Notes under the pieces: model-generated
The model's input: only the letters and a program-made list of their open reading frames with translations
What the model was told of the DNA's origin: nothing
Databases searched by the model: none
Source: a virus
IMG/VR virus record: IMGVR_UViG_3300025133_000275
Location: 1 to 39,238 of that record
Strand: one strand, 5' to 3'
Length of the DNA stretch: 39,238 nt
In this document: piece after piece, positions 1-39,238 of the stretch
Position numbering within the stretch: the stretch's first letter is position 1
Layout of the letters: the number at the start of each line of letters is the position of its first letter
Made by a program: the position numbers and the translations under genes

Positions 1-120
1 GGTGACGAGTCTGGTGACGAGTCTGGTGACGAGTCTGGTGACGAGTCTGGTGACGAGTCTGGTGACGAGTCTGGTGACGAGTCTGGTGACGAGTCTGGTG
101 ACGAGTCTGGTGACGAGTCT
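1..120 (+). repeat. 12-bp tandem array (GDES)n, left end
   Basis: Ten perfect head-to-tail copies of GGTGACGAGTCT fill positions 1-120 and are followed by the variant GGTGACGGCGGC. In the frame of the downstream VWA region each unit reads Gly-Asp-Glu-Ser, so the array encodes an acidic flexible linker. The same array, in the same phase and reading frame, ends the window at 39111-39238. The suffix 39123-39238 (116 nt) is identical to positions 1-116, so the contig is circular or terminally redundant and was cut inside the array. The number of units in the real molecule may be larger than the 10 seen here. Confidence 0.97.
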
Positions 121-1086
121 GGTGACGGCGGCGCTAAACAGTTACCTGATCTTGATATGGACACAGACGACAATATAGACGGCTTGATAGGTGATAATAC
201 TACAGACGGTGAGATACCGGACTACCCGGAAAATGACCTTGTGTCTATACTGGCACGCCGCACGCCGCCGACACATGTTAACGAGTACTACGATAATGAT
301 TTTAACCGGATAGCCAAATATTACAGCGAAGCGCCGTTTAAACAGGAGGTCGATAAACTCACACGGGGCACGCAAAGACTCGAAAACGGCTTGAGATCAA
401 TAATAAAAGTCGAATCAAAAACCGGCGTCATAACCCGGCGGCCGCGCGGTAGATTAGACACGCGCGGCTTAGCACGCGCCGCCGCCGGTGACAGTAACGT
501 GTTTCAAAAACGATGGTATAAACAAGCACAAAATACGGCGGTATGTGTTTTAACGGACGTGTCATCATCAATGACGGTGAATTATGTTGACCACGTGACC
601 GACCCGGCACCCATGTTTCTAGCCGCTACGTTTCAACGTGTAGCCGCGCGCACATTACAGCGCGCGCGTGTACCGTACTCACTTGTGGATTATCACGACT
701 ATACCGTTATCAAAAAGTCGTTTACTGAAAACATAACAGACGCGGAATTAGATAAGCGCGTTATTCTTGGCGGCGCTATTTGCCGGGGATGTACTAATAC
801 AACGACGGCTATTTGTGACGCCGCCGATATGTTTAGCACGATACCGCTATCGACTAACGTCACACGCCGTATCATGCTTGTAGTGACCGACGGTGATTGC
901 GACTATGGGCCTGATATGGTTCGTGAATCAATGGCATACGCGCGCACACAAGGCGTTGACGCTATCTATGGTATCGGAATAGGTGATACCGTCGACTTAA
1001 CCGGCGCTGGCTATGATGCACACGAACATATCAATGCAACAAGTCTACCAACTACAGGGCTGAATATGCTCACACGCGCCGTGTAA
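1..1086 (+). CDS. CobT-like VWA protein, C-terminal part (gene continues from 38406-39238)
   Basis: This is the C-terminal part of a gene cut by the contig ends. The frame is open from base 1 through the GDES repeats to TAA at 1084-1086, so the ATG at 157 is internal, not the start. After the acidic linker comes a von Willebrand A domain. The MIDAS motif DVSSS lies at about 553-567, followed by CTNTTTA (the MIDAS Thr region) near 790 and VVTDGD near 880-897, as expected for Mg2+ binding. The known architecture is that of CobT and related proteins: an N-terminal helical region, an Asp/Glu-rich middle and a C-terminal VWA, working with a CobS/MoxR AAA+ ATPase. The ATPase gene lies directly upstream at 37054-38403. 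Nothing else here suggests cobalamin synthesis, so a chelatase role is doubtful; remodelling of a protein or metallo-target is more likely. Confidence 0.9.
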   Translation, partial: GDESGDESGDESGDESGDESGDESGDESGDESGDESGDESGDGGAKQLPDLDMDTDDNIDGLIGDNTTDGEIPDYPENDLVSILARRTPPTHVNEYYDNDFNRIAKYYSEAPFKQEVDKLTRGTQRLENGLRSIIKVESKTGVITRRPRGRLDTRGLARAAAGDSNVFQKRWYKQAQNTAVCVLTDVSSSMTVNYVDHVTDPAPMFLAATFQRVAARTLQRARVPYSLVDYHDYTVIKKSFTENITDAELDKRVILGGAICRGCTNTTTAICDAADMFSTIPLSTNVTRRIMLVVTDGDCDYGPDMVRESMAYARTQGVDAIYGIGIGDTVDLTGAGYDAHEHINATSLPTTGLNMLTRAV

Positions 1087-1117: not shown

Positions 1118-1285
1118 ATGGCTAAGTTTAAATTCACGTTACCGGTGCCACACGGTAGCGTAACGGTATACTGGCACCGGTTCACGTCCGCGCCAGACGA
1201 CGCCGCGCGGTTTTTTATGTACCGCGCCGACGGCTACATGCAAATATATTTGCACTCGTTTTCGAGTAATTTCTACTCGTTTTAG
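1118..1285 (+). CDS. 55-aa protein of unknown function
   Basis: A short open frame runs from ATG 1118 to TAG 1283-1285, 31 bp after the VWA gene and on the same strand. It encodes MAKFKFTLPVPHG... rich in aromatic residues and ending in SSNFYSF. I do not recognise it. Its GCGC/CGCC-rich base use matches the preceding operon. The upstream ribosome site is weak (GGGG about ten bases before ATG, in a small GGGT/ACCC hairpin). Its stop overlaps the stop of the convergent helicase gene by two bases, so coding space is fully used, which supports it being a gene. It could instead be a chance frame in a terminator-like region. Confidence 0.5.
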   Translation: MAKFKFTLPVPHGSVTVYWHRFTSAPDDAARFFMYRADGYMQIYLHSFSSNFYSF

Positions 1286-1290
1286 AGTAA
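1239..1290. repeat. Palindrome and two tandem small hairpins at a convergent gene junction
   Basis: A perfect 16-bp palindrome (TGCAAATATATTTGCA, 1239-1254) abuts two near-identical 16-bp units, ACTCGTTTTCGAGTAA (1254-1269) and ACTCGTTTTAGAGTAA (1275-1290). Each unit can fold on its own (ACTCG/CGAGT with a TTTT loop, and ACTC/GAGT). The second contains both overlapping stop codons of the convergent genes. The units may act as a weak bidirectional transcription end or as protein-binding sites. They lie inside the 3' end of the small plus-strand frame and touch the end of the helicase gene. Confidence 0.6.
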
Positions 1291-2622
1291 CGCGTTTAAA
1301 CGCTTCATCAATATGTTGTGGTGTGAGGCTTTATTTTCCTCTCGAACTACTATATCTAGGTCTATCGTGTCAGTAGCCGCGAGTATGTCGACCTTGCACG
1401 TGGCCTTTTGATTACGCCGCCAAATGCGCGCTATGACTTGACGCGTTAAATCCCGCGACCATATAGGCGATGCTATTATCATGCGGCTGGCACAGGTTAA
1501 GTCTAATCCGTGCGCTGCCGACTTAGGATGTAGGAATAGCACGCCATTAGAGTCTTTTCGGAACCTAGCAAGGCTGTCATTCCCGCGCTTGTATAAGAGT
1601 CCTTCGGGTATCGCGCGCCGTAGTCTTTTGAGTTCTTCGGCGAACTGGTAAACCACTATGAGAGGTCTTTCAGTGCATTGTAAGAGTCTTTCAGTCTTTA
1701 AGTCATGTATGTAGTCTAGTCCTTCGCCTTCCGTGTGGTATGCAAACCCAGCGCAAACCTGTTGAAGTTTCGTTACCAGTATCGCCGCGTTGTCGGCGAT
1801 TATGTTCGAGTTCACACTGTCTCTTTCGAGTTGCAAATAATAATCCATACTCGCCGTGTCTAGTTCTATCAAGTCCGTCCGTAGTTCCAGCGGCGGGAGT
1901 TCATCCGTGTAATCAGGTAGTGTATAGACGAGGTGTGCTATCCGGTCAGTTATCCGATCAGCTCCGTTGGTCTTTATGTCCCAAGAATAACCGTTGTAGT
2001 CCTGAACGAAATACTCGTTCATGTACTTAGTCTTGTTTCGGCCTAGTGCTTTCCCGCCGTCGATTGCGAATACCTGATAGAACAATTGTTCAAACGATTC
2101 TGACACGGGAGTCCCAGACATCCCGACCCGGACGTCAAAGGTGTTTAAACACTTCCTCATCTTCTTGAACCCTGCGCCGCCCGCTTTGAGCTTCGTGATC
2201 TCATCGAACACAACCATATCGAAACCGTGTTGTTTTCCGTAGGTTGTAAAGAACCAATCCATGTTATTGTATGACAGCACAATGATCTCATTCGACAGGT
2301 CAGCCACTAATTCCTTTCTTGACCCCGGCGAGCCATTAGCAATGGCGATGTTTAAACACGCTGTGTGATCCCATGTGAGATATTCACCGGGCCAGACATC
2401 GGCGACCACGTTAGGCGGTGCAAACACAAGTGCGCGCTTAACCACGCCGTCGCGTAATAACTCCTGCATGGCAGTCAGAGCAACGATAGTCTTTCCAGCA
2501 CCCATCTGACCTATCAGCAGAGTCTCGCCGTATTCGTATATGTGAGTGACGGCTTCGTGCTGTTCACTGTTTAAACACTTAGTCAAGCTGCCTCGCGCTC
2601 TCGTAATGAAAAGGTGATCCAC
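1282..2622 (-). CDS. SNF2/DEAD-type superfamily 2 helicase
   Basis: This 446-aa ATPase has SNF2-family helicase motifs in order: Walker A GQMGAGKT (residues 38-45), the DEAH-like box DEIT (140-143), a SGTP-type motif III (GMSGTP) and C-terminal motifs V and VI (HGLDLT, then QVIARIWRRNQ). Such short SNF2 helicases in phages lie next to a VRR-NUC nuclease and family A polymerase and are assigned to replication or recombination. Translation appears to start at GTG 2622, inside the end of the nuclease gene (44-nt overlap), so the two are translationally coupled. The stop TAA (1282-1284) overlaps the stop of the facing small gene. The function is inferred from motifs and context. Confidence 0.9.
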   Translation of the reverse strand: MDHLFITRARGSLTKCLNSEQHEAVTHIYEYGETLLIGQMGAGKTIVALTAMQELLRDGVVKRALVFAPPNVVADVWPGEYLTWDHTACLNIAIANGSPGSRKELVADLSNEIIVLSYNNMDWFFTTYGKQHGFDMVVFDEITKLKAGGAGFKKMRKCLNTFDVRVGMSGTPVSESFEQLFYQVFAIDGGKALGRNKTKYMNEYFVQDYNGYSWDIKTNGADRITDRIAHLVYTLPDYTDELPPLELRTDLIELDTASMDYYLQLERDSVNSNIIADNAAILVTKLQQVCAGFAYHTEGEGLDYIHDLKTERLLQCTERPLIVVYQFAEELKRLRRAIPEGLLYKRGNDSLARFRKDSNGVLFLHPKSAAHGLDLTCASRMIIASPIWSRDLTRQVIARIWRRNQKATCKVDILAATDTIDLDIVVREENKASHHNILMKRLNALL

Positions 2623-3364: not shown

Positions 3365-3839
3365 ACGAGGCGGCAGTTCAGCCGCCCGGCAAATCGCTTG
3401 CCCAAGCTGGCAGAAAATATCCGAGGGCGTGCCCCAGCAAAGCACAACCAGTTCATACGCCGCCGAGGGTACGGTCTTGCATACCTGCATGGAGAACATC
3501 CTTGAAGACGGTGCCGAGATAAACGATTTTATGGGGCAGACGTTCACTGTCGATGGTATAGAGGTGGTCATTGACGACGATCACATAGAGTTGCTAACGA
3601 TGGCGCTAATGGCGTGGGACGAGTTCTGTCGTCAGAATCATATCGAAGATTACCGCGTAGAACAGACCTTCGAGATTGATGAAGACACTGGCGGTACCTG
3701 TGACGTAATCGCGTGGAGTGACATCAGAGTGTGGGTTCTTGACTGGAAATTTGGGCAAGGCGTGGAAGTAGCCGCCGCAGGATCAAAGCAAGCAATGTTC
3801 TATTTAATGGCAGCGGAGCAAAGTGATGAATATAAGTGA
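3351..3839 (+). CDS. RecB/Cas4-type nuclease (DUF2800-like), N-terminal half
   Basis: GGAGG at 3341-3345 selects ATG 3351 rather than GTG 3339, giving 162 aa. PD-(D/E)XK RecB-type motifs are visible: Glu39-Gly-Thr-x-x-His44, Asp118, Asp131-Trp-Lys133, and Gln147 in SKQAMFYLM. Cys17 (IACPSW) sits where these enzymes carry the first ligand of a 4Fe-4S cluster. The protein stops at TGA 3837-3839 just after the Gln helix, where the family normally continues to three more clustered cysteines. Those are in the next, overlapping gene in the +1 frame. DUF2800-type nucleases commonly precede a single-strand-binding-type protein and polymerase A in phages, exactly as here. It is either a genuine two-subunit split, a programmed frameshift or a sequence error. 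Confidence 0.85.
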   Translation: MKHYKRGGSSAARQIACPSWQKISEGVPQQSTTSSYAAEGTVLHTCMENILEDGAEINDFMGQTFTVDGIEVVIDDDHIELLTMALMAWDEFCRQNHIEDYRVEQTFEIDEDTGGTCDVIAWSDIRVWVLDWKFGQGVEVAAAGSKQAMFYLMAAEQSDEYK

Positions 3840-4485
3840 GTTATTTAAAACCCGAGGGCTGGGTGTGGCTATCATACAGCCGACGCCGAGTAGGGATACT
3901 GAAACACTTAAAGTATGGTGCCCGACACCTGACGACTTCGACGCATTTAAACGTGACTACGCCAAGTCCAAGACTGCTGTCGGCACCAGTGCCGGAGATC
4001 ACTGCAAGTTCTGTCCGGGGGCTTCGGTTTGCCCGATCAAAACAGGTGACGCCCAAGCAGCATCCGTGGCAGACCCGCATGTACTTGACCAGTTGTCTGA
4101 GAATCTAACACTTGCGCTGAGTCTCAAGGAGTGGATCAAATCCGTAGAGAACTTCGCCCATGAGCAGATGGAACAAGGCGCGGCTGTCGAGGGGTTTAAA
4201 CTCGTCCAGAAGCGGGCGACTCGAAAGTGGTCTAATCCCGTGGAAGCGGAGGAAGCCATTAGGCAAACTAAGAAATTCAAAGTGCGGGATTTCACTAAGT
4301 CCACACTGCTAACCCCACCGCAGATAGAAAAGGTGTTCAAACAAAAAGGAGTTGACATGAGCGTACTGGAGGGGTACATTGTCAAACAGTCAACAGGAAC
4401 GACGGTCGCAACGGTCGACGATCCTCGCGACGAAATAGCCGTGAATGTCAACGCGCTCAAAGCAGCACTTGACCGTTCACAATAA
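3826..4485 (+). CDS. RecB/Cas4-type nuclease (DUF2800-like), C-terminal half with cysteine cluster
   Basis: ATG 3826 has GGAG at 3815-3818 (7-nt spacing) inside the preceding gene, so it can be translated in its own right by coupling. The 219-aa product begins MNISELFKTRGLGVAIIQP, the strand expected to follow directly on the upstream half, and holds Cys60-x2-Cys63-x5-Cys69 (CKFCPGASVC), the three C-terminal ligands of the cluster in Cas4/AddB-type nucleases. The remaining part (about 90-219) is helical with many Lys residues and probably binds DNA. It has no catalytic motif of its own and needs the upstream protein. The two frames overlap by 14 nt. Confidence 0.85.
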   Translation: MNISELFKTRGLGVAIIQPTPSRDTETLKVWCPTPDDFDAFKRDYAKSKTAVGTSAGDHCKFCPGASVCPIKTGDAQAASVADPHVLDQLSENLTLALSLKEWIKSVENFAHEQMEQGAAVEGFKLVQKRATRKWSNPVEAEEAIRQTKKFKVRDFTKSTLLTPPQIEKVFKQKGVDMSVLEGYIVKQSTGTTVATVDDPRDEIAVNVNALKAALDRSQ

Positions 4486-4510
4486 TAAACAGGTAACAGG
4501 AGACATAAAT

Positions 4511-5215
4511 ATGTCAAGTAACCTACCAGCAGTAAACGTACCCGATCTAGGCAAAAGTCTAGTAGCAGCAAAACAACGCAGAGTTCCAGACTCCGGGGAT
4601 ATGCCTTTTCTACGCTTAATCAAAAGCGGTGAGTGGGTGTATGGTTCTGATGACGTCGACGTACAGGAGGGTTCCAAGTGGGCCGCTAATCCTACGACGT
4701 TGATGGAGGGATTCTGTGCGTGGGGGGACGGTGAACTTTTGGGCGAAGAAATGCAGCCCATGACAAACCCGACGCCTCTGATCTCGGCTAACCTACCCGA
4801 CGTGGGCGCGCCGTATAAACGTCAAATCGCGATACAGTTTGTCTGTATCAACGGTGACGACGAGGGTCAGGCTGTGATGTACAAAACATCCAGCAAAGGC
4901 GGCTTAAAAGCTGCGTCCGGGTTGATAGACGCGATCATCACTCAAATCGAAACTACCGCTGACGACGACGGCGAACCGCCTATCGTCCCGGTGATTAAGT
5001 TTGAGGTATCTCACTACAAACATAAAGAGTACGGTCGTGTCTACACGCCTATTCTGGACATTGTAGAGTGGGCCACGATGGGCGGGTCACTCGCGGCGAA
5101 AGACTCCGACGTTACCGGCGGACAAGCCGATGACTACGGTGACGACGACGCTGACGAGCCAGCAGAGGAAGAAGCGCCAAAGCAACGCAAGCGCAGACGT
5201 CCTATCGCTAGTTAA
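4511..5215 (+). CDS. Probable ssDNA-binding-type replication protein
   Basis: AGGAG at 4498-4502 points to ATG 4511 (234 aa). The body is a mixed, beta-rich domain (PFLRLIKSGEWVYG, IAIQFVCINGDDEG, PVIKFEVSHYKHKEYGRVYTPIL). It is followed by an acidic tail (DDYGDDDADEPAEEEAP) and a basic end (RKRRRPIAS). An acidic C-terminal tail is usual for phage single-strand-binding proteins. In comparable phage modules the slot between the DUF2800 nuclease and polymerase A holds a DUF2815-type protein considered SSB-like. I do not see a firm family signature, so the role rests on position and tail. A terminator follows immediately. Confidence 0.7.
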   Translation: MSSNLPAVNVPDLGKSLVAAKQRRVPDSGDMPFLRLIKSGEWVYGSDDVDVQEGSKWAANPTTLMEGFCAWGDGELLGEEMQPMTNPTPLISANLPDVGAPYKRQIAIQFVCINGDDEGQAVMYKTSSKGGLKAASGLIDAIITQIETTADDDGEPPIVPVIKFEVSHYKHKEYGRVYTPILDIVEWATMGGSLAAKDSDVTGGQADDYGDDDADEPAEEEAPKQRKRRRPIAS

Positions 5216-5221
5216 ACCCAC

Positions 5222-5244
5222 GGGGCCGCAAGGCCCCTTTTTTT
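5222..5244 (+). terminator. Rho-independent terminator
   Basis: GGGGCC (5222-5227), a GCAA loop and GGCCCC (5232-5237) are followed by seven T (5238-5244), a classical intrinsic terminator. It lies between the SSB-type gene and polymerase A in the same direction, so it would lower polymerase expression relative to the genes upstream. Confidence 0.85.
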
Positions 5245-5261
5245 CCTTTGAAGGTTTAAAC

Positions 5262-7307
5262 ATGAGATTTCTAATCATAGATTTCGAGACTCGATCCCGT
5301 GTCGATCTCAAAACCGCAGGGACAGACAAATACTGTAAAGACCCAAGCACTGAGATACTGTGCATGGTAGCCAAAATGTCCGATGACATACGGACGTGGG
5401 TGTGGGACGCAACCGGACAGTTGAGTAGTTCACCGCTCTACGACGACGTGTTAGATGATTTCATCAGAGTCGCAGCAAAGCATGTTGCGGACGGCGGCTT
5501 GATAGCCGCGCACAACGCAAGATTCGATCAACAGATATGGGAGTACGTCGCCGTCGGCGATCACGGGTTCCCTGAGATACCCGCTGAATCGTGGTACTGT
5601 ACATCTGCACAGGCGCGTATAAACGCCCTACCCGCTAACCTCGACGATGCCACCCGCGCGCTGGACGCCAGACACAGAAAGAACCACGCCGGGGCCGCGC
5701 TAATACGGCAGTTGTGTATCCCAAACGACATGGGTCAATTTAACAACGACGTTTCACTGCTAACTAAGTTACTGGTGTACTGCATCGACGACGTGGCAGC
5801 GACCAAAGACTTACTGAACAGCACCCGACTGATGTCACCGACGGAACACGACGATTGGTTGGCTAACGAAAGAATCAACGACCGGGGTATAAAAATCGAC
5901 CGGGTTCTCGCAGAGCACGCCACCCAATACGCGGCAGCAGAAGCAGCAGAGATAGGCCGCGAGTTGTCTATACTCACGAATAACAACGTGTCTAAACACA
6001 CGCAGAACCAGCGGATTAAAAAATGGTTGCTGGGCAGGCAGGTTCCCGACATGGTTGAGCAGTTGATGACTGTCTACGTGAAAGGAGTGAAAAAACACTC
6101 GCTGGCAAAAGACATAAGAACGCAGATACTCGACCGCGCGGACTCAGGTGAAATTGACCTGCCTGATGACGTGTACAATGTGATTGCTGCCTTGGATGAC
6201 GGTAACAAGTCCTCAGTAGCAAAGTATCAACGTATGCTCGACCGCAAGGAGCCTGACGACCGTGTAAGGGGTTCGTTCATGTACGCCGGGGCAGCGACTA
6301 TCCGATATACCTCGCGTGGTCTGCAACTACATAACTTCAAACGTGACTGCCTGTCCGCCGCCGACGCGGAGAGTCTGCGGGGTATGATGAGCAGTGGCGC
6401 GCAACTGTCTGGACACGCAGTGATGGACACCCTTGCCAAAGCCCTGCGCCCGACGTTAATACCTGACGAGGGCAAGGCGTTTATCGTGGGCGATTGGAGT
6501 TCTATCGAGAACCGGGCACTACCTTGGCTGGCGAATTCTTACGGGGGTCAGATGAAACTAGACCTGTTTAAACACATCGACGCCGATCCTGATCTGCCTG
6601 ACATGTACGTGCGTGCTGCTGAAGATGCCGGGGGGTATGACAGACAGGTGGGTAAAGTAATTGAATTGTCTCTCGGCTTCGGCGGGGCCAACGGCGCGTT
6701 CAACTCAATGGCGCGTAACTACGGTGTACACCTGCCTGACCACCAAGTGACGCGCATAGTCAAAAACTGGCGTAGGGCTAATCAATGGGCAGAGACTTTT
6801 TGGAACGAACTGGAGAGGGCAGCACGGCAAGCGATCCAAAGCCCCGGTCTGGTCACAGATGCGGGACGGGTGAAATACGTGTTTAACCCTGACCTGATAG
6901 GCGGATCACTGATCTGTGAGCTACCGTGTGGGCAGCTACTGACCTACCCGGCGACACGTTTAAACACTGTTGATACTGAGTGGGGGCCTAAGTCTGAGAT
7001 CAGTGCCTTGAAAGCAAATTGGTCGCCAGCCGCTGATGCAAAAGAATGGCCGAGGTACACTTTATGGCGGGGACTACTCGCAGAAAACGTGACACAAGCG
7101 ACATGTGCGAGTTTATTGCGCTATGTCATTCGCCAGTTCGATGACGTAGTGCTACACTGTCACGACGAAATTGCGCTCGAAGTTCCTATCGGGGATGCTT
7201 ATCTCTGGCGTGACACCCTGCAACACGAAATGGAGAATGGGCCAGCATGGGCACAAGGATTACCTCTCAACGCGCCAGCCAAGATAATGACCAGATACGG
7301 CAAATAA
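5262..7307 (+). CDS. polA: DNA polymerase family A with 3'-5' exonuclease domain
   Basis: The start is ATG 5262 with GAAGG and GTTTAAAC just before it; the open frame extends upstream through the terminator but has no better start. The 681-aa enzyme has exonuclease motifs Exo I (IDFET, Asp7 and Glu9), Exo II (NARFD) and Exo III (YCIDD). These precede polymerase motif A (GDWSSIENR, Asp411), motif B (RQVGKVIELSLGFGG) and motif C (HDE, 634-636). It is the size of replicative phage family A polymerases and should copy the phage genome with the primase-helicase just downstream. All catalytic residues that I can check are present. It is separated from the SSB-type gene by a terminator and so is probably expressed at a reduced level. 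Confidence 0.96.
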   Translation: MRFLIIDFETRSRVDLKTAGTDKYCKDPSTEILCMVAKMSDDIRTWVWDATGQLSSSPLYDDVLDDFIRVAAKHVADGGLIAAHNARFDQQIWEYVAVGDHGFPEIPAESWYCTSAQARINALPANLDDATRALDARHRKNHAGAALIRQLCIPNDMGQFNNDVSLLTKLLVYCIDDVAATKDLLNSTRLMSPTEHDDWLANERINDRGIKIDRVLAEHATQYAAAEAAEIGRELSILTNNNVSKHTQNQRIKKWLLGRQVPDMVEQLMTVYVKGVKKHSLAKDIRTQILDRADSGEIDLPDDVYNVIAALDDGNKSSVAKYQRMLDRKEPDDRVRGSFMYAGAATIRYTSRGLQLHNFKRDCLSAADAESLRGMMSSGAQLSGHAVMDTLAKALRPTLIPDEGKAFIVGDWSSIENRALPWLANSYGGQMKLDLFKHIDADPDLPDMYVRAAEDAGGYDRQVGKVIELSLGFGGANGAFNSMARNYGVHLPDHQVTRIVKNWRRANQWAETFWNELERAARQAIQSPGLVTDAGRVKYVFNPDLIGGSLICELPCGQLLTYPATRLNTVDTEWGPKSEISALKANWSPAADAKEWPRYTLWRGLLAENVTQATCASLLRYVIRQFDDVVLHCHDEIALEVPIGDAYLWRDTLQHEMENGPAWAQGLPLNAPAKIMTRYGK

Positions 7308-15373: not shown

Positions 15374-17715
15374 TAGGCATCGTTCCCTGCGTCAGTGGTG
15401 AAAAACAGTTTTATCCCTATAAGCCTCGCGTCCTCCGCCATAGTATCGCTGCCGTTTGATACAGCCCTGAATATCCTGAAATAGCACATATCCTCAGCCG
15501 CTGGCGTACCGGCTATGGTGATAGCGCCAGACTCGCCCGTTACAAGCATGTCATTTGCTGCCGAGATATTGTTGTCAATGACCACAACAGCAGTACCGTA
15601 GGTCGCGCCTATCGTGCCGTCGTTACTAACCGCTACACCTTGTAGACTCCATGCCACACCATCGGTATCAGTAGCCGTAGAAGTCCAGAAGGCTTGGAAG
15701 GCTACTGTGCCCTCATTCCAGCTCTTTGGAAACGCCACTTGGAACTGTGCGTATTCGGCAGAAGTCCCGTCAAAGTCCAGCACGTTCATATCTGGTTGCC
15801 CAGCCCCTGTCGCAGCCTGTGCTATCGCCGCACAGCCGTTAGACACCGTGGGCAGCATAGCCGCTACTGGAACGAATATAGTTGATTTGCCTATGTTGCC
15901 GGATGCCAGCCCTGTACAAGTGCCTGAGCTGCCGCTGGCGTTGCCTGTGACGTTGCCAGTTAGCGGCCCTGCAAAATTTGTAGCGGCTGTAATCACCCCG
16001 CCATCAATGGCGCTCGACCCGACATCGACAGCGCCAAAACCTGACGTAATCGAACCTGAGTCCAGCGCTCCTACAGTGACCAAATTGGCTGCACTCGTGA
16101 TGGATGCTTGTGTTCCGCCTGTGACCGTTGCTGCGGTGCCACTGGCGTTGCCTGTTACGTTACCTGTTAAATCTCCAGCAAAATTTGTATCAGCAGTAAT
16201 TACACCACCGTCAATGGCGCTACTGCCGACGTCAATAGACCCAAATCCCGACGTTATAGAGCCTGAGTCCAGTGCTCCAACCGTGACGGCGTTAGCCAGC
16301 GTGGTAATTGCTGCCTGAGTCGCGCCTGTGACTGTTGCTGCCGTGCCAGAAGTGTTACCTGTGACATTACCTGTAATATTCCCTGCGAAGTTTGTATCCG
16401 CTGTGATCACACCGCCGTCGATAGCACTGGAGCCGACATCAATAGACCCAAAACCTGACGTAATTGACCCTGAGTCCAATGCGCCTACAGTAACAAGATT
16501 TGCCGCACTTGTTATACTGGCCTGCGTCCCGCCCGTTACAGTGGCTGCCGTGCCGCTGGTGTTTCCAGTAACATTACCTGTTAAATTTCCAGCAAAATTT
16601 GTATCCGCTGTAATCACGCCACCGTCGATAGCACTGGAGCCTACGTCAATAGATCCGAAGCCGCTCGTGATCGAACCTGAGTCCAATGCGCCCACTGTGA
16701 CCGCGTTAGCGAGAGTGGTGATTGCTGCCTGTGTAGCCCCTGTTACGGTTGCGGCTGTCCCTGATGCGTTACCTGTCAGGTTGCCTACAAACACTGTGCT
16801 GGTGATAGATGTCGCGCCTGTGACCACACCCGCATCGACGCTGATCGTGCCGTCCAGAACGATAGCTGATCCGGCTACGGGTGTCAGTGCGAGGTTGCCC
16901 ACGGTGGTCACAATAGCGTCACCGTTGGTGATCTCCAGATTCGTGCCGCCTGTGGTGTTGCCCAGCGCCAGCACCTCAGTCAGTGAGTTCACTGTGCCTA
17001 CCTGCGCGTCTACATACGCCTTGATCGACTGCTGCGTGGCAAGCTGTGTGGCACTGTTTGTACCCATCGCGTCTTCATCGAGTATACCTGTGACCGTCGC
17101 GCCTGTGGCAAGTGTCAGGGACGTAGACAAGGTAGTAGCCGGTGTGACCACCACCGAGGTGCTGATGTCGATGACTGTGGTGAGCGTGCCCGCCTGCATG
17201 GTCTTGACGAGCAGCGTGCCGTCTTCTGTGGCGTCTGTCACGTCGTCTATCTGGGCCTCGATAGAGGCGAAGGTGGTCTGTGTACCCCCGTCGTCCTCAC
17301 CGTCGAAGTAGACCGCGCCTATAAAGTCCGCGTCTGCTGGCGAGGCTGAGTTCCTGTGCAGCTTGAGGATAGGGCCAATAGTAGCGTCTGCCACTGCGCT
17401 GATCACCGTGGCGACCTCCGAGGCGTAGTCCATGACCTGCACACCCGCGAGGGCTATGCCGACGTTCCCCGTGGCGATGTAGTATATACCTGTGGATAGC
17501 TCATCGGTGAAGGCGTAGCCGGGTAGACTGACGGTGCCTGCGAACCCTTCCAGACCTGCGAGCATCGCGCCACTACCTGACCGGGAGAGGCTGTCTGTCA
17601 TCTCCGTGGCAAGGTCTGTCAGCGTGTTATTCGCCCATGTCGCTGAGATCGTCGTACCCGAGCTAACCGGGTTCCCCGATGCTAAACTATAATTACCTGA
17701 CGCGTCGCGTGCCAT
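15373..17715 (-). CDS. Tail fibre protein with Gly/Thr-rich repeats
   Basis: AGGAG, then GTTTAAAC, then ATG 17715 gives 780 aa. The N-terminus (MARDASGNYSLASG ... ISATWANNTLTDLATEM) is typical of podophage tail fibres that attach to the tail. From residue 319 four copies of a 69-residue unit follow (GTAATVTG ... AGNLTGNVTGN), forming a probable beta-rich trimeric shaft. The C-terminal 150 residues (after CTGLASGNIG) form a compact domain with a segment like IFVPVAAMLPTVSNGCA. No peptidase S74 motif is present here; one occurs in a different protein (21730-23367). It overlaps the adhesin gene downstream by one base. Confidence 0.88.
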   Translation of the reverse strand: MARDASGNYSLASGNPVSSGTTISATWANNTLTDLATEMTDSLSRSGSGAMLAGLEGFAGTVSLPGYAFTDELSTGIYYIATGNVGIALAGVQVMDYASEVATVISAVADATIGPILKLHRNSASPADADFIGAVYFDGEDDGGTQTTFASIEAQIDDVTDATEDGTLLVKTMQAGTLTTVIDISTSVVVTPATTLSTSLTLATGATVTGILDEDAMGTNSATQLATQQSIKAYVDAQVGTVNSLTEVLALGNTTGGTNLEITNGDAIVTTVGNLALTPVAGSAIVLDGTISVDAGVVTGATSITSTVFVGNLTGNASGTAATVTGATQAAITTLANAVTVGALDSGSITSGFGSIDVGSSAIDGGVITADTNFAGNLTGNVTGNTSGTAATVTGGTQASITSAANLVTVGALDSGSITSGFGSIDVGSSAIDGGVITADTNFAGNITGNVTGNTSGTAATVTGATQAAITTLANAVTVGALDSGSITSGFGSIDVGSSAIDGGVITADTNFAGDLTGNVTGNASGTAATVTGGTQASITSAANLVTVGALDSGSITSGFGAVDVGSSAIDGGVITAATNFAGPLTGNVTGNASGSSGTCTGLASGNIGKSTIFVPVAAMLPTVSNGCAAIAQAATGAGQPDMNVLDFDGTSAEYAQFQVAFPKSWNEGTVAFQAFWTSTATDTDGVAWSLQGVAVSNDGTIGATYGTAVVVIDNNISAANDMLVTGESGAITIAGTPAAEDMCYFRIFRAVSNGSDTMAEDARLIGIKLFFTTDAGNDA
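15934..16761 (-). repeat. Four 207-bp repeats in the tail fibre gene
   Basis: Unit boundaries are 16761-16555, 16554-16348, 16347-16141 and 16140-15934. Each encodes 69 residues. Units alternate A-B-A-B: A units have ATQAAITTLANA and B units have GTQASITSAANL, so a two-unit block was duplicated. The protein is nearly identical between units while many third codon positions differ. Confidence 0.92.
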
Positions 17716-31368: not shown

Positions 31369-33436
31369 TGGAACTTTGCGTCGGGTTTAAACGCGCTCGC
31401 GCCTGTTCCCGCTTGATAAATTCTTCAGTCTCTTTCTCTTCTTCGACCATATTCAGTTCAGCTTGAGCCTGCTCCTTACGGATATTATTATTATTTTCCG
31501 TCTGGAGTTCCTGCTGTCTTATCTGCGCTTCAAGTTGTATGTGCTGCTGTTCGTACTGCCATTTCTGTTGCTCGAACTGTTGCGTGAGTTGTAGCTTTTG
31601 CATTTCAAACTGCTGTTTAGCTTGTTCCGTTTGAGCCTTGATTTCAGCGTCAGACGGCTTATCGTTTTCGCCCTGTTGCCCGGCGCTCTGAAGCGTCTTG
31701 ATAGCCTGATCGAGAACTCCTTCAACCTCATTGCTGCCCTTGAACCCCGCAAGCCCCCACTTGAGCATTTCCAGAAGTACAGGCGTTGCAGTTGGTTCCA
31801 ACTCAACAAGAGGCGCAGCCGACTGTAAGAACGTAGCCAGTGCCGTGATGTAACTCGTCCTTTCCTCTTTAAGCTGTGCATAGTCCACCATCGCTACTGA
31901 TTCGGCTTTAACCTCAATGCGCCATATCAAGTCGGCGCGATTCTTCATAATGTCGATAGCAGGCTGAATTAACTCCTGCTCTGCGGTCATCGCCATTGCG
32001 TTAGACTGCTTGACGATTGACTCAGGCTGGAAGTGTTTAGACACTATCTCAGCACGCAGACGGATCAAGTCAGTCGCGTACTGGGCAAACTCGTCCTGCA
32101 TGGACTGTACGTTGATCGACGCGAACCGCGCCTCTAGCGCACGCTCTGTCGCGGACGCTGCACCACCTGCCTGCTTACCGCCACGCATGATGTCAGACAT
32201 ACCACTGATCTCGAACAGGAGCGCCTTAGCGTCGTCCCTGCGCCCGACCAATATCATCATAGTCTCAGCGACCTCTTTAATAGGCAGCCAATCAATCGCG
32301 CCCTGCAAGCCGCCCTTCTCGCCAAACATCGCCCAGTTGTCCACCGGGATCAGGTCATTCTCCACGCCCTCCAGCATGAGCGACTTAACGCCCTCGCTAG
32401 ATTGGTCATAGACTCCAACGACCTTAATCGCCTCAGTAATCTTGGCTATACGTGTCTCAAGGTTTGTTATCTCAAGGTACAAATCTTCAGACATCTTGTA
32501 GTCTGACTTGGGCATGAACGCCGTAGTGGTTACGTTAGCAACCATCGGTTGTGGTATTGGGAAGAACCCCGTCAACTGTAGTGGGTCGTTCTGCTCGTCA
32601 AGAATCTTACTATACCCTTTGCAGAACCAATAAACCTTCTTGTCTTCTTTCGCCCATATCTCCCACACCTCACCACGCATCCAAGCGTCTTGCTTTGGAT
32701 CATCAGAGTCGATGTCCTCCTCACCGTCGTCCAAGGCGGTCTTCTCTAAGGGAATATGCTTCGCTATGTCTTCGCCAAAGCGCTCGGTGAGCTGATCCTT
32801 TGTCATAAGCGTGCGGAAGGCTACCCATCGAACCTCTTGCCATGTCCTCGCTGGTGCCCATACAAAATCGCGCCAGTGGACATAATCTATTGGTGCTCTC
32901 TCGTCGGTGATCTGTTCTTCTGTACGGGCAGGCTCTAGCTCTAGGCCCGTCAACTGATCTGTTACGGATGCGATCTCGACTTCTTCTTTGTCGAACTCGT
33001 AGCGTACTCTGGAAATTCCAAGACCGGGTAAAAGGCGATCCTGTAGATTCTGTTTAAGTGCTTCTGAGTAGAGGTCATTAGGGGTGCCGATGTCGGCGTT
33101 GAGCATCCTCTCGAACAGGATTCCTGCGACTCTGGCTGGATCATCGTTAAAGTCCATGTTAGTACGGGAAAATTTTATCTCAGGCAGCTTACCGAACATC
33201 ATTGCCTGCATCGTTCTGATATTGGCGTGAAACAGGTTAAGGTTAAACGTCTCCCCCGCTTTTGAGTTCAAATACGCCTGCACCACCTCCGCGCCCTGCT
33301 TCTGGTACTGACGACACGCTGTGAACGCCGCCTTAATCTCCGCGTCCCACCGCTTGTGCTGGCCTACGGTTGGTTCGCTGTCGTTCTCAAATTCATCTAG
33401 GGAGTCTATCGCCCCCTGTACACTGCTATTAGCCAT
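31361..33436 (-). CDS. Portal protein
   Basis: This 691-aa protein lies directly after the large terminase gene (TAATG overlap) and has the size and composition of P22-type podovirus portals. These features include the N-terminal QHKRWDAEIKAAFTACRQYQKQ, a core with WAPARTWQEVRWVAFRTLM, and helical stem and crown regions. The C-terminal 120 residues form a Gln-rich barrel-like coiled coil (QQFEMQKLQLTQQFEQQKWQ), comparable to the P22 portal barrel that reaches into the head. It forms the dodecameric vertex through which DNA is packed by the terminase and ejected. Confidence 0.87.
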   Translation of the reverse strand: MANSSVQGAIDSLDEFENDSEPTVGQHKRWDAEIKAAFTACRQYQKQGAEVVQAYLNSKAGETFNLNLFHANIRTMQAMMFGKLPEIKFSRTNMDFNDDPARVAGILFERMLNADIGTPNDLYSEALKQNLQDRLLPGLGISRVRYEFDKEEVEIASVTDQLTGLELEPARTEEQITDERAPIDYVHWRDFVWAPARTWQEVRWVAFRTLMTKDQLTERFGEDIAKHIPLEKTALDDGEEDIDSDDPKQDAWMRGEVWEIWAKEDKKVYWFCKGYSKILDEQNDPLQLTGFFPIPQPMVANVTTTAFMPKSDYKMSEDLYLEITNLETRIAKITEAIKVVGVYDQSSEGVKSLMLEGVENDLIPVDNWAMFGEKGGLQGAIDWLPIKEVAETMMILVGRRDDAKALLFEISGMSDIMRGGKQAGGAASATERALEARFASINVQSMQDEFAQYATDLIRLRAEIVSKHFQPESIVKQSNAMAMTAEQELIQPAIDIMKNRADLIWRIEVKAESVAMVDYAQLKEERTSYITALATFLQSAAPLVELEPTATPVLLEMLKWGLAGFKGSNEVEGVLDQAIKTLQSAGQQGENDKPSDAEIKAQTEQAKQQFEMQKLQLTQQFEQQKWQYEQQHIQLEAQIRQQELQTENNNNIRKEQAQAELNMVEEEKETEEFIKREQARARLNPTQSSNE

Positions 33437-34767
33437 TAAATTCTACGCCTCGCAATGGATAGCTTCTGTGGTTTTTCCCTATCCTCAAACAACTCGTTCA
33501 ATGTGATTTTTGGCTTCTCAAACACTGGACGTGAGGGTTGTGACGTGATATTACCCCTTTTCTCCTGCGCGACCAAGGCTAAATATCTAAACGCATCTGC
33601 TCCGTCAGAGGCCCAATCGTGGAGGGGGGTGTCTCTAAAAGCTTTTGTAAGCTCGTTAAACTCTCGTCGATACGCTCTAAGTGCTTCAACACCTGCGTCG
33701 CCATTGGTTGTGTCAATGTGGCATGTTGGCAGTACAAGGCGAGCAGCGTCAATACCCTGTTGTACGGCCAGTTTAGGCACCACGCGGCATGGTAGACCCG
33801 CTTCGATAAGCTGTTCGACTGTTGATCGCCCCGTTTGGAGCGTCTTTGCTCGTGCGTCGTGAGGTAGCCAGAGTGTTTCAATTTCATAGGGCTTCGCCTG
33901 TAGCATGTCGATGTAATGGCTGAGAGGGACGGACTGATTCTCATAATAGTCGATTATGGCTATGCCGTCAGGTCTTGATTGCCAGAACCAGAAGGCGCAG
34001 GAGTCGCTGTACCCGATGTCGGCGGCGATCTGTACAGGTTGGGTGTGGTCAAAGAGGTTGAGCTTCCCGATTTGGCCCTCTTGCTCCATCGTTTGTATGA
34101 TAGCGGCATAGTAAGTTCCCAATACCGCTGCTGTGAAGTCACACTCAAATTCTTGATCATACTGCGCTTGCTCCATCAATCCTTGCAGTTGTTTAAGGTC
34201 ATCAGGGGCCAGTATGCCTGATTCGCTCGCCTTGAGCGTCATACTGAACCACTCCGGGTCGCTTACCGCTGTTTGGTGAATATGATAAAAATGGTTCTTA
34301 CCTTTTGGCGTACCAATGAACGCAGCCCAACCGCGCCTGTCCGCAAGCGTTGGTAAAATAACTTCGGCCCATAAAGAAGGACGACAATCACCATACTCGT
34401 CAAGAATAACGCCGTCCAGATATATCCCCCGGAGAGCATCAGGATTATCAGCGCCGTAAAGAGTAATCCAAGCACCGTTAGGAAGTACCACGCGAAGATC
34501 AGATTCTCTGACTTCAACGGCAATGCCTTCTGTAGCGTCTTTGAGGTATGTCCAAGCCACGTCTTTAGCCTGTTTATAAAATGGTGCAATATACGCATAT
34601 CTGGCGTTCTCCTTTGGTGTGTATAGGGCGCGAATGACGGCCTCGTTGACGCACGCGAAGGTCTTACCAGCGCGGCGGTGACAAACTAGGGATGACCAGC
34701 GTTTATCCCTCTGGTGTAAGGGCAGAAAGTGGTCGCGGGGGGTGTATTTGAGCTTAAATTCAGCCAC
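33436..34767 (-). CDS. terL: Terminase large subunit
   Basis: The ATPase/nuclease that packs DNA. Walker A HRRAGKT follows SSLVC; Walker B VILDEYGD, then the coupling motif GTPKGKNHFY. The RNase H-like nuclease has DIGYSD, LPHDARA and a final Asp in WASDGADAFRYL. The best start is GTG 34767 (MAEFKLKYTPRDHF ...), which overlaps the stop of the 53-aa gene; TTG 34794 is upstream but unlikely. The protein is then 443 aa. It acts with the small subunit at 34914-35420 and docks on the portal encoded next. Overlap of the stop with the portal start couples them. Confidence 0.95.
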   Translation of the reverse strand: MAEFKLKYTPRDHFLPLHQRDKRWSSLVCHRRAGKTFACVNEAVIRALYTPKENARYAYIAPFYKQAKDVAWTYLKDATEGIAVEVRESDLRVVLPNGAWITLYGADNPDALRGIYLDGVILDEYGDCRPSLWAEVILPTLADRRGWAAFIGTPKGKNHFYHIHQTAVSDPEWFSMTLKASESGILAPDDLKQLQGLMEQAQYDQEFECDFTAAVLGTYYAAIIQTMEQEGQIGKLNLFDHTQPVQIAADIGYSDSCAFWFWQSRPDGIAIIDYYENQSVPLSHYIDMLQAKPYEIETLWLPHDARAKTLQTGRSTVEQLIEAGLPCRVVPKLAVQQGIDAARLVLPTCHIDTTNGDAGVEALRAYRREFNELTKAFRDTPLHDWASDGADAFRYLALVAQEKRGNITSQPSRPVFEKPKITLNELFEDREKPQKLSIARRRI

Positions 34768-34921
34768 TGACTCTCGCAGCCTCGCGAATCTCAATCAGTC
34801 GCTCCAGTTGAGCGTCGTTTTGCTTATCAACTTCTTCCTTGGTGTAGGGAACACCGTGCAGAAAAGCGTAAGCGCGCCCATCGACACTGAAATACCCACG
34901 TAACAATTCCGCGTCAGACAT
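34760..34921 (-). CDS. 53-aa protein between terminase subunits
   Basis: ATG 34921 overlaps the small terminase stop (ATGTCTGA) and TGA at 34760-34762 lies just inside terL, so the frame is tightly tiled between its neighbours. The product begins MSDAELLRGYFSVDGRAYAF and ends in a charged helix. I do not recognise it. Its exact overlap with both neighbours and its matching codon use suggest a real cotranslated gene; it could assist terminase assembly. Confidence 0.7.
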   Translation of the reverse strand: MSDAELLRGYFSVDGRAYAFLHGVPYTKEEVDKQNDAQLERLIEIREAARVSG

Positions 34922-35568: not shown

Positions 35569-35920
35569 GTTTAAACGCTGTATGTGCGGAGGCGTGTTTA
35601 AACACACCCCGGCAAAATAAACATAAAAATTTTTATTTTGGCCGTGTACTTTTTAGCTTTGGTGTGCATAGGTACGCTCATTTTAAAAATAACAAAAATA
35701 TACGTGTACCTCCGAGCAATTGCAGCGACAGCCGGATCGAATTGACCGTGGGGGTGCCTTTCTCCTGCTGTTTAAACACTATTAGAACAATGAGAACAGG
35801 CCATACCATGCACATATGGCGCGCTGGCTAAGTTTAAACGCGGCGGCTGTACGTGTGCCAGCGCTAGACGCTGTTTTGCCATCACAGGCCATCACAGGCC
35901 GTTACAAGCCATGTTTAAAC
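35569..35920. repeat. Cluster of five GTTTAAAC palindromes
   Basis: Copies lie at 35569, 35596, 35770, 35832 and 35913, two of them as the longer GTGTTTAAACAC or TGTTTAAACAC form. This is the highest density of the motif that occurs 29 times in the window. Also here are the 14-bp palindrome ATAAAAATTTTTAT (35623-35636) and three 10-bp tandem units based on CCATCACAGG (35879-35908; two exact, one degenerate). Confidence 0.9.
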
Positions 35921-36344: not shown

Positions 36345-36362
36345 ACACTCGCTAGCGAGTGT
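36345..36362. promoter_or_regulatory. 18-bp operator-like palindrome upstream of the SprT gene
   Basis: ACACTCGCTAGCGAGTGT is a perfect palindrome, extendable to 26 bp (36341-36366) with one G-T mismatch. The element CGGACAC occurs at 36343 and 36374, and its reverse complement GTGTCCG at 36244. A TTGACA lies at 36321-36326 but a good -10 is not seen. A dimeric repressor or activator site controlling unit A is likely. Confidence 0.6.
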
Positions 36363-36400: not shown

Positions 36401-37027
36401 ATGAACGAACCAATTACACGCGAACAGTGGCTAAATAGCGCCGCCGCTATGATAGTAGCTGAAATACTCGAACCCGCCGTGAATACGCGCTCGCGCCTGT
36501 TCCCACTTGACGCCGCGCTGCCGGTGCCACACTACCGCATAAGTGTAGCGCCGTTAAAATCTAAAGCTCTGGCTGAATGTCACCCCCAATCACATAGCGC
36601 CGACGGTATCAATGAAATCTTCATCGACGCCGGAGAAAGTGACTCACTAAAAATGCTGGCTAGTCTGCACCATGAACTAATACACGCATTCGATAATTGT
36701 GAATCAGGGCACAGGAATTTCTTTGCCCAGATAGCGCGCGCTACCGGATTGGAAGGAAAACTTACCGCTACCGTAGCCGGGGAAACATTGACAGTTACGC
36801 TACAAGAATACGTCGATATCTTAGGCGATATCCCGCACGCCAAGTTGTCTATACCTAATAAATCAAAAGGACGGAATAACAATAAACTACTATGCGCGTG
36901 TGGATTTAAATCCAATCTATCAGCTAAACAATGTACCGCCGTAGAACAGGGCGTTATGTATCAAACACACGGTATGGTTCACTGCCCAGCGTGTGCAAAC
37001 ATCTCACTTGAAATTCACCGCGCGTAG
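36401..37027 (+). CDS. SprT-like zinc metallopeptidase
   Basis: ATG 36401 has GGAGAG at 36389-36394; GTG 36359 lies upstream but within the palindrome. The 208-aa protein has HHELIH (His91-Glu92-x-x-His95) and a third His in ESGHRNFF (His104), the SprT/SPRTN-type zinc site. The C-terminus has a zinc ribbon (CAC at 165-167, HCPAC at 194-198). SprT-family proteins cleave DNA- or chromatin-bound proteins, or act without proteolysis. It is the first gene of an operon with a CobS-type ATPase and a CobT-like protein that itself has an HExxH motif. GC-rich, CGCG-heavy base use sets this operon apart from the late genes. Confidence 0.85.
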   Translation: MNEPITREQWLNSAAAMIVAEILEPAVNTRSRLFPLDAALPVPHYRISVAPLKSKALAECHPQSHSADGINEIFIDAGESDSLKMLASLHHELIHAFDNCESGHRNFFAQIARATGLEGKLTATVAGETLTVTLQEYVDILGDIPHAKLSIPNKSKGRNNNKLLCACGFKSNLSAKQCTAVEQGVMYQTHGMVHCPACANISLEIHRA

Positions 37028-37053
37028 TAGCGCGCTAAACAGGAAACAGGAAA

Positions 37054-38403
37054 ATGACAAATCTAACCATAAATAGCCAGCGCCGCGCCTTGATACAAAA
37101 AGGCCACGCGGTAGCAGGGTTAACCGACGCCGATATTGAACAGGCATATAACGCTATGACACTTGGCGCCGCGCTAGGTAACACACCTAAGCCTATTCAG
37201 CCGCAACCTAGTGATACCAGTAGCGCGCCGCAAAATAGCACCGTTGGCGCTGATCTTGCGAATACATTTATGAACGACGGGAAAAACGCGTTTATAGCTT
37301 CCCTAGGCGTCGTACTAGGCGATTATCAAAAAGAGAATGATAACCTCACCAGTATCATAGACGGCCTACACGCGGACAACAGCGCGCTACAGGATGATGT
37401 CGACAACGCGCGCCGTATATCGACTACGCCGCCGCAAATCATAACGCGCACAGTTGACATTGACGGGAACGAAATAACGCCGGACGTGAACCCGCAAAAA
37501 GTCGATACAGTACAAGCCGCCGACATCTGGCCTGACATCGACGGCGCGTATACTTTCGACAGATACGACTTTGAAGCGCCGCGTGAACCTGCATTTTATG
37601 ACATGAATCAGATGCACAACTCCGGGTTACTGGCACAGGTAGCCAGCGCCGTTAAACGTGATAACCCATTATGGCTATACGGTGAAAAAGGCACAGGCAA
37701 AACGACTTTTGTACAATCGCTGGCCTTCTCATTAGGACGTCCGTTTTTCAGGATATCGCACACTAAATCAATGGAATCGCAGGCATTGATAGGTTGTTTC
37801 CTGCTACCTGACAGTAAAACCCAGTGGAGTGACGGCGCGTTGACTCAGGCCATTAAAACGCCGCGCGCGGTCATACTCTTAGATGAACCTACGCGTAACC
37901 CGGACGCGTGCGAAATCTACCAAACACTACTGGATGAGAAATACTATGACATAGCAGAAACCGGGGAACGCGTGTGGATAGCTGACGGCGTGTCATTTTT
38001 TGCCGCCGATAATCAAAACGGTGACGGTGACGATACAGGCCGCTACGACGGTACGTTTGCGGTTAACAGCGCCTTTGGTGACAGGTTCAAAGCGAAACTA
38101 CAATGCTTCTATATGGCACCGGCACATGAGGCCGCGTTACTTGTATCGTTGACCGGTATCAATAAAAACAGCGCGCTGGAAATAGCGGAATTTGCGAACA
38201 TCATGCGCGGCATGGCTACCGCAGGTGAGATTGAAGAACCTATTTCTTTTAGGCGTTTAAACGCGTTAGCTGAATTCATAGTCGACGGTATACCGCACGA
38301 CTTAGCGATGGAAACAGCCGTGTTTGCTTTTATAAGACACGAACAGGATAGAGAAACATACCGCACGCAAGCCGCCGTACACCTTACACAATTGAGAGCC
38401 TAA
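37054..38403 (+). CDS. cobS: CobS/MoxR-type AAA+ ATPase
   Basis: AGGAAACAGGA before ATG 37054 gives 449 aa. An N-terminal 190 residues (partly low complexity, possible coiled coil near 85-115) precede the AAA+ domain: Walker A GEKGTGKT (210-217), Walker B VILLDEPTR (Asp277-Glu278), sensor 1 FFAADNQNG and DRFKAKL with an arginine-finger candidate. It closely follows the CobS/MoxR pattern, which works with VWA partners such as CobT, encoded two bases downstream (38406). The N-terminal extension replaces the short N-terminus of bacterial CobS. A MoxR-type remodeller is more likely than a cobaltochelatase. Confidence 0.9.
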   Translation: MTNLTINSQRRALIQKGHAVAGLTDADIEQAYNAMTLGAALGNTPKPIQPQPSDTSSAPQNSTVGADLANTFMNDGKNAFIASLGVVLGDYQKENDNLTSIIDGLHADNSALQDDVDNARRISTTPPQIITRTVDIDGNEITPDVNPQKVDTVQAADIWPDIDGAYTFDRYDFEAPREPAFYDMNQMHNSGLLAQVASAVKRDNPLWLYGEKGTGKTTFVQSLAFSLGRPFFRISHTKSMESQALIGCFLLPDSKTQWSDGALTQAIKTPRAVILLDEPTRNPDACEIYQTLLDEKYYDIAETGERVWIADGVSFFAADNQNGDGDDTGRYDGTFAVNSAFGDRFKAKLQCFYMAPAHEAALLVSLTGINKNSALEIAEFANIMRGMATAGEIEEPISFRRLNALAEFIVDGIPHDLAMETAVFAFIRHEQDRETYRTQAAVHLTQLRA

Positions 38404-38405
38404 AC

Positions 38406-39238
38406 ATGGACTACCTAAGCACACTAAACAGCGCTAAGCCGGTTTCTGGCTACGCCTATGCACAGGCCAGCCGCGCCGCGTTAGCGGCTATGCTACGCGC
38501 ACACGCCGTCGACGTGAAACGTATTGACGTACACTGCCAAGGAAACACGGCGGCTATTAACTTCGATACAAATATTTATGGTGAATTGAGTATCACGCTA
38601 TTTTTGCCAGCGCTCCCCAAATCAGGGATGTTAACCCGGATACAGGCCGATACTTTTACCGGATACTGGCTACATGAATCTTTGCACGCCTTGTATACAA
38701 CAAAAGATAATGCTAAGACACAATCCTTGTTCCCTACGCCGTATGAGTTTTCTATGTTTAACGGCTTAGAGGATTGCAGGATAGAAATGTTAGCCTTGCA
38801 AAATAACGTCGCTGTTAACTTATTAAAATGTCTCACACGGCTACGCCGCCACACGTTCAAAGGCATACCGGCTGAACGTTTAAACGCGTTAGTTGATAAC
38901 CCGTTACAATCGCTTGGCTATATCTTAAAACTGGCTATTAATGAACAGTTTGGCATCGACGCCGGGGCGCTACCGTTTTTATCACGCCTTGATAGTATCG
39001 AAAAGTATTTAGAGCACGCACGCGCCGGGGCACTAAAGCCTAGTTTCCTGATGGAATTTGGCGCGGCTAAACTGGCGCGTGAAATACTTGATAGGCTACA
39101 AGCGCCGGATAGTGACGAGTCTGGTGACGAGTCTGGTGACGAGTCTGGTGACGAGTCTGGTGACGAGTCTGGTGACGAGTCTGGTGACGAGTCTGGTGAC
39201 GAGTCTGGTGACGAGTCTGGTGACGAGTCTGGTGACGA
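38406..39238 (+). CDS. cobT: CobT-like protein, N-terminal zincin-like part (gene continues at 1-1086)
   Basis: ATG 38406 starts two bases after the ATPase stop; the frame stays open to the end of the window through GDES repeats and is in the same frame as positions 1-1086. In the 239 residues before the array there is HESLH (His90-Glu91-x-x-His94) and, 27 residues on, GLEDCRIE (Glu122/Asp123, Glu127). This HExxH plus EDxRxE pair is found in metallopeptidase-like domains fused to VWA in DUF2201-type proteins and resembles gluzincins. The full protein is at least about 600 aa: zincin-like domain, acidic linker, VWA. Whether it cleaves peptide bonds is unknown. Confidence 0.88.
   Translation, partial: MDYLSTLNSAKPVSGYAYAQASRAALAAMLRAHAVDVKRIDVHCQGNTAAINFDTNIYGELSITLFLPALPKSGMLTRIQADTFTGYWLHESLHALYTTKDNAKTQSLFPTPYEFSMFNGLEDCRIEMLALQNNVAVNLLKCLTRLRRHTFKGIPAERLNALVDNPLQSLGYILKLAINEQFGIDAGALPFLSRLDSIEKYLEHARAGALKPSFLMEFGAAKLAREILDRLQAPDSDESGDESGDESGDESGDESGDESGDESGDESGDESGDESGD
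39111..39238 (+). repeat. 12-bp tandem array (GDES)n, right end
   Basis: The array opens with the variant AGTGACGAGTCT (Ser-Asp-Glu-Ser), followed by nine perfect GGTGACGAGTCT units (39123-39230) and eight bases of a tenth. It joins in phase and in frame with the array at 1-120. Because the unit is 12 bp, gain or loss of units changes linker length by four residues without breaking the frame. Confidence 0.97.

Follow-up and report, generated by a model that had tools for sequence, protein, structure and literature searches.

What would a virus do with a SprT-like zinc metallopeptidase, a CobS-like ATPase and a CobT-like protein encoded one after the other? The question is raised by the window analyzed here, a virus record of 39,238 bp taken at its full length. 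The answer that we favor, and to which we give about even chances, is that the operon encodes a three-part module for protein remodeling and proteolysis, which would expose DNA-bound proteins to a SPRTN-like protease early in infection.

The SprT-like gene (phrog_6361) spans 36401..37027 on the plus strand and encodes 208 aa from its ATG, with a possible alternative GTG start upstream, at 36359. It is followed, after a gap of 26 bp, by the gene of a CobS-like, MoxR-class AAA+ ATPase of 449 aa (phrog_249; 37054..38403, plus strand), whose stop lies 2 bp before the start of the CobT-like gene (38406..39238, plus strand). The tight packing on the plus strand described in the initial annotation is borne out by the ORF coordinates; of the three genes assigned there to 36401-38403, two, the SprT-like and the CobS-like, are inside this span, while the third begins at 38406. 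Just 5' of SprT, at 36345..36362, there is a perfect 18-bp palindrome, ACACTCGCTAGCGAGTGT, the sole copy in the window and possibly an operator. An Rfam search of the window gave no match, and the matches of a promoter and terminator scan were not above chance.

The third gene is cut at the end of the contig, after a zincin domain (HESLH at residues 90-94; NGLEDCRIE) and the start of a (GDES)n linker. Where is the rest? At the opposite end of the window, 1..1086 on the plus strand encodes the same linker followed by a VWA domain with a DVSSS MIDAS motif. Both window ends are inside one 12-bp tandem array, (GGTGACGAGTCT)n, encoding the Asp/Glu/Ser/Gly linker on the plus strand (39112..39238, and again at 1-127), and the end and the start overlap exactly over up to 116 nt. 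Since the overlap registers all differ by 12, the frame continues through the common repeat, and a single CobT-like protein of ~600 aa results, with an indefinite number of repeats. A second metagenome yielded another contig of the same phage (L002; CobS, SprT, and zincin proteins 100% identical), and this one, too, breaks within the array, which is what one expects of a repeat that assemblers cannot cross. Most simply, judging from this coding logic, the contig is a genome, either closed or circularly permuted, that was cut within the CobT-like gene. The VWA/MIDAS domain ascribed to the operon is therefore present, but it is located at 1-1086, outside both 36401-38403 and 38406-39238, because the contig breaks within the repeat of one gene.

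Elsewhere in the window, the exonuclease (DUF2800/phrog_69) runs across two overlapping ORFs in different frames (3339-3836 and 3823-4485), which may reflect a programmed frameshift, a gene split, or a sequencing error; a nucleotidyltransferase-like ORF (4445-5215) overlaps the DNA polymerase ORF (5130-7307) by 86 bp; and a 780-aa minus-strand ORF of the structural region, without a PHROG match, contains four imperfect 207-bp tandem repeats (15930-16752).

What can be said of the individual proteins? The SprT-like protein carries HELIH at residues 91-95, a third His, and Cys pairs toward its C-terminus. HExxH, the third His, and two Cys close to the C-terminus vary little or not at all across 45 homologues, HELIH and H104 being conserved in at least 90% of the sequences. 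For its AlphaFold (AF2) model (pLDDT 87), the best solved neighbor among 526 chains is human SPRTN (6mdw; Z 8.2, 3.2 Å, 100 residues), a moderate score tied with selecase and abylysin; archaeal minigluzincins are likewise near the model, and Foldseek returned no significant solved match for it. HExxH, the third His, and the modeled fold all agree with membership in the SprT/SPRTN family. The Pfam profile PF10263 does not match the window protein, and one relative (L060) reaches 25.3 bits against a gathering score of 25.6, an annotation threshold without a structural criterion; being below it, the protein is classed as SprT-like and not as a certified Pfam member. Its relatives in cultured phages are located in replication modules, for example, near DNA polymerase I or SSB.

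The CobS-like protein has a Walker A (GEKGTGKT) and a Walker B (VILLDEP) motif and matches AAA_5 with 63.3 bits (cut-off 22) and CbbQ_C with 26 bits (cut-off 20.6), so that the MoxR-type ATPase named in the initial annotation is confirmed as a member of the MoxR/CbbQ class. Its nearest solved relatives are midasin and NorQ/CbbQ, followed by CobS. The VWA domain of the CobT-like protein, assigned to CobT PHROGs, scores 21.4 bits on Pfam VWA, just below the cut-off of 23.8, and retains both the DxSxS MIDAS and the TD motif. The N-terminal half matches no Pfam or PHROG family, and a direct search of cultured phages with it gave no match. Nevertheless, HExxH and NxxEDxxxE are invariant across 30 diverse homologues of this zincin. 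Its AF2 model (pLDDT 93) is surrounded nearly exclusively by HExxH peptidases (DUF885 proteins, Ste24p, selecase, BlaR1, and SPRTN; best Z 7.3), again with no significant solved match in Foldseek. The invariance in 30 and 45 homologues means that the zinc-site motifs are not due to chance; the operon does encode two separate HExxH proteins, with HELIH and HESLH, respectively, both conserved among homologues, and structure prediction yields both zinc-site folds confidently. The zinc site of the CobT-like protein may belong to an active peptidase or be structural only; its strict conservation favors activity.

Does the neighborhood exist elsewhere? A SprT scan gave 80 viral loci, and a separate CobS scan 79 more. 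SprT lies directly 5' of the ATPase in 88 viral loci, with a median gap of 4 bp between its stop and the ATPase frame, and of the 76 CobS-anchored loci whose upstream sequence is visible, 63 have an adjoining SprT; two further loci (L132 and L146), missed by the adjacency filter, have it as well. The commonest of the architectures is SprT-CobS-zincin-VWA in four genes (53 loci); the zincin and the VWA are fused in the window and in L080, L081, L082, and L084; SprT-MoxR-DUF7192 occurs in L007, L008, L060, L063, and L072; and CobS-CobT without SprT, verified over whole records, is found in L096-L103 and others. The co-occurrence of SprT, CobS, and zincin-VWA is hence a conserved feature of other viral loci, although the locus count overstates independence, since, at 60% CobS identity, most SprT+CobST loci fall together in a single clade; the lineages besides it are the window and the L080-L084/L081 group. 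A profile scan of bacterial genome contigs with the CobS of one clade retrieved only distant MoxR proteins, and SprT beside CobST was not seen in any cultured phage inspected. In many phages, CobST occurs alone or SprT occurs alone, so each can also function by itself. In mycobacteriophages, DUF7192 (PF23822) is a common family, of no assigned function; in phages, it is a partner of MoxR-type ATPases whether SprT is present or not (L091 and L095 are further cases). As to whether DUF7192 is a hidden VWA domain, a profile comparison with the VWA set gave a probability of 4.5%.

The phylogenies add a further dimension. The SprT tree, of 65 rows, places the window with L007, a SprT-MoxR-DUF7192 locus, as its sister (support 100/98), and the remaining CobST-linked SprTs form their own clade with the same support (100/98); constraining all CobST-linked SprTs to one clade is rejected (p-AU 0.008). 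The ATPase tree groups the CobS of the window at 99/93 with L096 and L097, both of which are without SprT. The nearest genomic relatives found are L007 and L008, with 55% identity in the terminase large subunit (33436..34794 in the window, minus strand), 42% in the portal, 39% in the DNA helicase (1282..2622, minus strand, downstream of the operon), 42% in SprT, and 43% in part of the polymerase. Between these syntenic flanks, TerS/TerL on one side and the helicase on the other, they carry SprT-MoxR-DUF7192 in the slot of the window operon. SprT+CobST has accordingly been assembled at least twice, and the trees, together with the common slot, indicate that SprT stayed in the lineage of the window while the ATPase-adaptor pair was exchanged, in either direction. 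Repeated assembly and pair exchange are stronger evidence of a common function than a bare neighborhood.

Another link, in this case with DNA, comes from a short palindrome. GTTTAAAC, of the nTTTAAAn type, has 29 copies in the window against 0.59 expected, an over-representation of ~47-fold. Five sites are clustered upstream of the operon within 35569..35920 (starts 35569, 35596, 35770, 35832, and 35913), and the others start at 336, 1294, 2143, 2350, 2569, 4194, 5254, 6566, 6958, 8470, 9782, 9826, 12063, 17716, 17859, 18684, 19306, 20743, 21728, 29050, 30309, 31385, 38255, and 38878; they are found in coding and noncoding DNA, with little conserved flanks. Enrichment of the same sequence extends to 81 of 82 SprT+CobST loci and to L007/L008. 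It is replaced by CTTTAAAG in L060, L063, and L072 (over whole records, 46 copies in 40.9 kb for L060 and 58 in 43.2 kb for L063), and by ATTTAAAT in SprT loci without a MoxR neighbor (L026, L028, L029, L034, and L035; 4-5 copies vs 0.1-0.2 expected). Among dereplicated ATPase-anchored loci, two contig-edge cases being left out, nTTTAAAn is enriched in 18/18 with SprT and 0/17 without; the palindrome thus goes with SprT, not with the ATPase. It also occurs in cultured phages whose hosts are unrelated (16 palindromes in Pan1 and 20 copies of GTTTAAAC in Dinoroseobacter phage R26L, which carries SprT, the reversed pattern being absent in both), and the 4 copies of E. coli phage ep3 (0.7 expected) are not significant. 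That SprT alone brings the palindrome was ruled out, as it is missing from SprT-bearing actinophages (GC ~70%) and from Bordetella phage FP1. In the open-licence literature, no report of GTTTAAAC enrichment in phages was found.

How should this association be read? Phylogenetic contrasts on the ATPase tree are concordant in 3/3 cases, and, with only three independent contrasts, the association stays below significance. One reading, speculative and in our judgment unlikely as it stands, is that the SprT-MoxR-adaptor set would be a DNA-site-directed proteolytic machine: one of its parts, a candidate being the SprT zinc ribbon, would recognize nTTTAAAn, and the machine would clear or spare the proteins bound there. 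The outer bases would be specific to each lineage (GTTTAAAC, CTTTAAAG, and perhaps ATTTAAAT), and the phage itself would have spread the motif over its genome, at about one per 1-1.5 kb. The reader of the palindrome may also be another common DNA-binding protein, such as the adjacent TerS/HTH protein, and a host or lineage effect, such as a common host signature, may account for the association.

Collectively, linkage, repeated assembly, the common slot, the folds, the invariant catalytic residues, and the link with DNA, through the palindrome and the replication modules in which SprT relatives lie, count in favor of a remodeling and proteolysis module. Its mechanism can be sketched as follows. 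The CobS-like protein would form an ATP-driven MoxR ring; the CobT-like zincin-VWA protein, with its own HExxH site, would be the adaptor of the ring, its VWA MIDAS holding the client; and the client, once loosened, would be cleaved by the SprT-like protease, as SPRTN does with DNA-bound proteins. Formation of the complex, hand-over of the substrate, and proteolysis are steps that we infer from known MoxR-VWA pairs and from SPRTN, and delivery of a substrate for cleavage, proposed at the outset, remains the leading hypothesis. The module would act early, on host or phage proteins sitting on the DNA. That the clients are DNA-bound and the timing early is a guess, the latter suggested by the plus strand that the operon has in common with the exonuclease, polymerase, and primase genes, opposite to the structural genes. 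Against the module count the moderate structural Z-scores (7-8), the nonsignificant Foldseek E-values, the dominance of one clade among the loci, the separate occurrence of the parts in many phages, the small number of contrasts behind the palindrome association, and a published proposal of virion assembly for the MoxR/peptidase-VWA pair (Iyer 2021, PMC7824862).

In that proposal, formulated for T4-like jumbo phages, the MoxR/zincin-VWA pair is a virion-assembly chaperone that remodels structural proteins while peptidases trim them. The same paper cites a MoxR-VWA pair required for the tail assembly of an archaeal virus, and the operon adjoins TerS/TerL/portal in the lineages examined. However, the strand of the operon is that of the replication genes and not that of the structural module, and the SprT relatives occur in replication modules, which makes virion assembly rather unlikely here. 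The module could instead serve host take-over or counter-defense by degrading a host protein, for instance a nucleoid protein, an RNA polymerase component, or a defense complex, a possibility that overlaps with the reading we favor and differs from it in the target only. Host targets have been suggested for phage SprT by the jumbo-phage authors (PMC7824862), and a patchy distribution with module swapping would fit; long retention within one large clade and the lack of noted defense-related neighbors speak against it, and we regard it as possible but on the unlikely side. Nor is the operon supported as a known defense system: against PADLOC system models, the hits were confined to weak ones with generic AAA entries (for the window, E 1e-3 at best), and the bacterial search with one clade brought up no close relatives.

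Are these genes a functional unit at all? If SprT and CobST/MoxR were mere operon neighbors retained by synteny, with no common function, one would understand why each part is found alone in other phages and why the large SprT+CobST clade is a single lineage. Yet there are two separate SprT-CobST assemblies, SprT adjoins either kind of ATPase pair in one and the same genomic slot, and the gap is of few bp in nearly all loci, so that simple synteny appears decidedly doubtful. Very improbable, in turn, is a role in auxiliary metabolism, in which viral CobST would use the CobN of the host to raise cobalamin synthesis and SprT would be an incidental neighbor. The window proteins do resemble CobS/CobT, and the same proposal has been made for viral cobST (PMC8651126), but the CobS-like protein scores 34.1 bits on TIGR01650 against an equivalog cut-off of 558.55, the window has no match to TIGR01651 (CobT; 31.5 vs 759 in L044), and CobN is absent from all 12 viral records inspected (the window and 11 related ones), in line with the initial observation that no cobalamin genes accompany the operon. 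Moreover, midasin and NorQ/CbbQ rank ahead of CobS, CobST is swapped with MoxR-DUF7192 in the same slot, and the invariant HExxH has no known role in chelation.

Why does this matter? Both MoxR-VWA pairs and SprT-like proteases are widespread and little understood, and viral CobS and CobT are as a rule annotated as vitamin B12 genes. The recurrence of a SprT-MoxR-adaptor unit argues for protein remodeling over a vitamin B12 role, and the palindrome offers a concrete candidate for its DNA target.

Among the known systems, NorQ-NorD, CbbQ-CbbO, and RavA-ViaA are MoxR-VWA pairs in which a MoxR ring and its VWA partner remodel a client. Unlike the window module, they are without a SprT partner and have bacterial clients. 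Another known system is the pair of a MoxR AAA+ ATPase and a metallopeptidase-vWA protein in T4-like jumbo phages, proposed to be a chaperone with a peptidase (Iyer et al. 2021, PMC7824862). The window protein, read across the contig ends, has the same arrangement of an N-terminal zincin and a C-terminal MIDAS VWA beside a MoxR ATPase, and PHROGs 1576 and 459 (peptidase) link the two families. The differences from PMC7824862 are that here a SprT-like gene heads the operon, the phage has 39 kb, the adaptor is frequently encoded by two separate genes, and the ATPase pair is exchangeable with MoxR-DUF7192. The cobST cluster of many tailed viruses, read as a cobaltochelatase (PLoS Biol 2021, PMC8651126), likewise places a CobS ATPase beside a CobT with VWA/MIDAS, sometimes in two ORFs (HHTV-2); in contrast to PMC8651126, here the scores are below the equivalog cut-offs, HExxH is invariant, and SprT is attached. 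In pelagimyophages, sprT and cobST are both listed, with no link drawn between them, and no paper that treats SprT and MoxR or CobST as one unit, or describes its exchange with MoxR-DUF7192, was found in the open-licence literature. The suggestion of an undescribed system thus holds in part: the CobS/MoxR and metallopeptidase-VWA pair was already described (PMC7824862, PMC8651126), and the new part is its coupling to SprT and the swap with MoxR-DUF7192. With SPRTN/Wss1, which act on DNA-protein crosslinks, and with the phage SprT-like proteases, the window protein has in common the SprT fold, HExxH, the third His, and zinc-ribbon-like C-terminal Cys motifs; it differs from SPRTN/Wss1 in that for it a DNA-damage context would be hypothetical, and from the SprT genes of the cultured phages inspected in adjoining a MoxR ring. 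This ring would make the operon a phage parallel to eukaryotic crosslink repair, in which an AAA+ unfoldase hands substrates to SPRTN.
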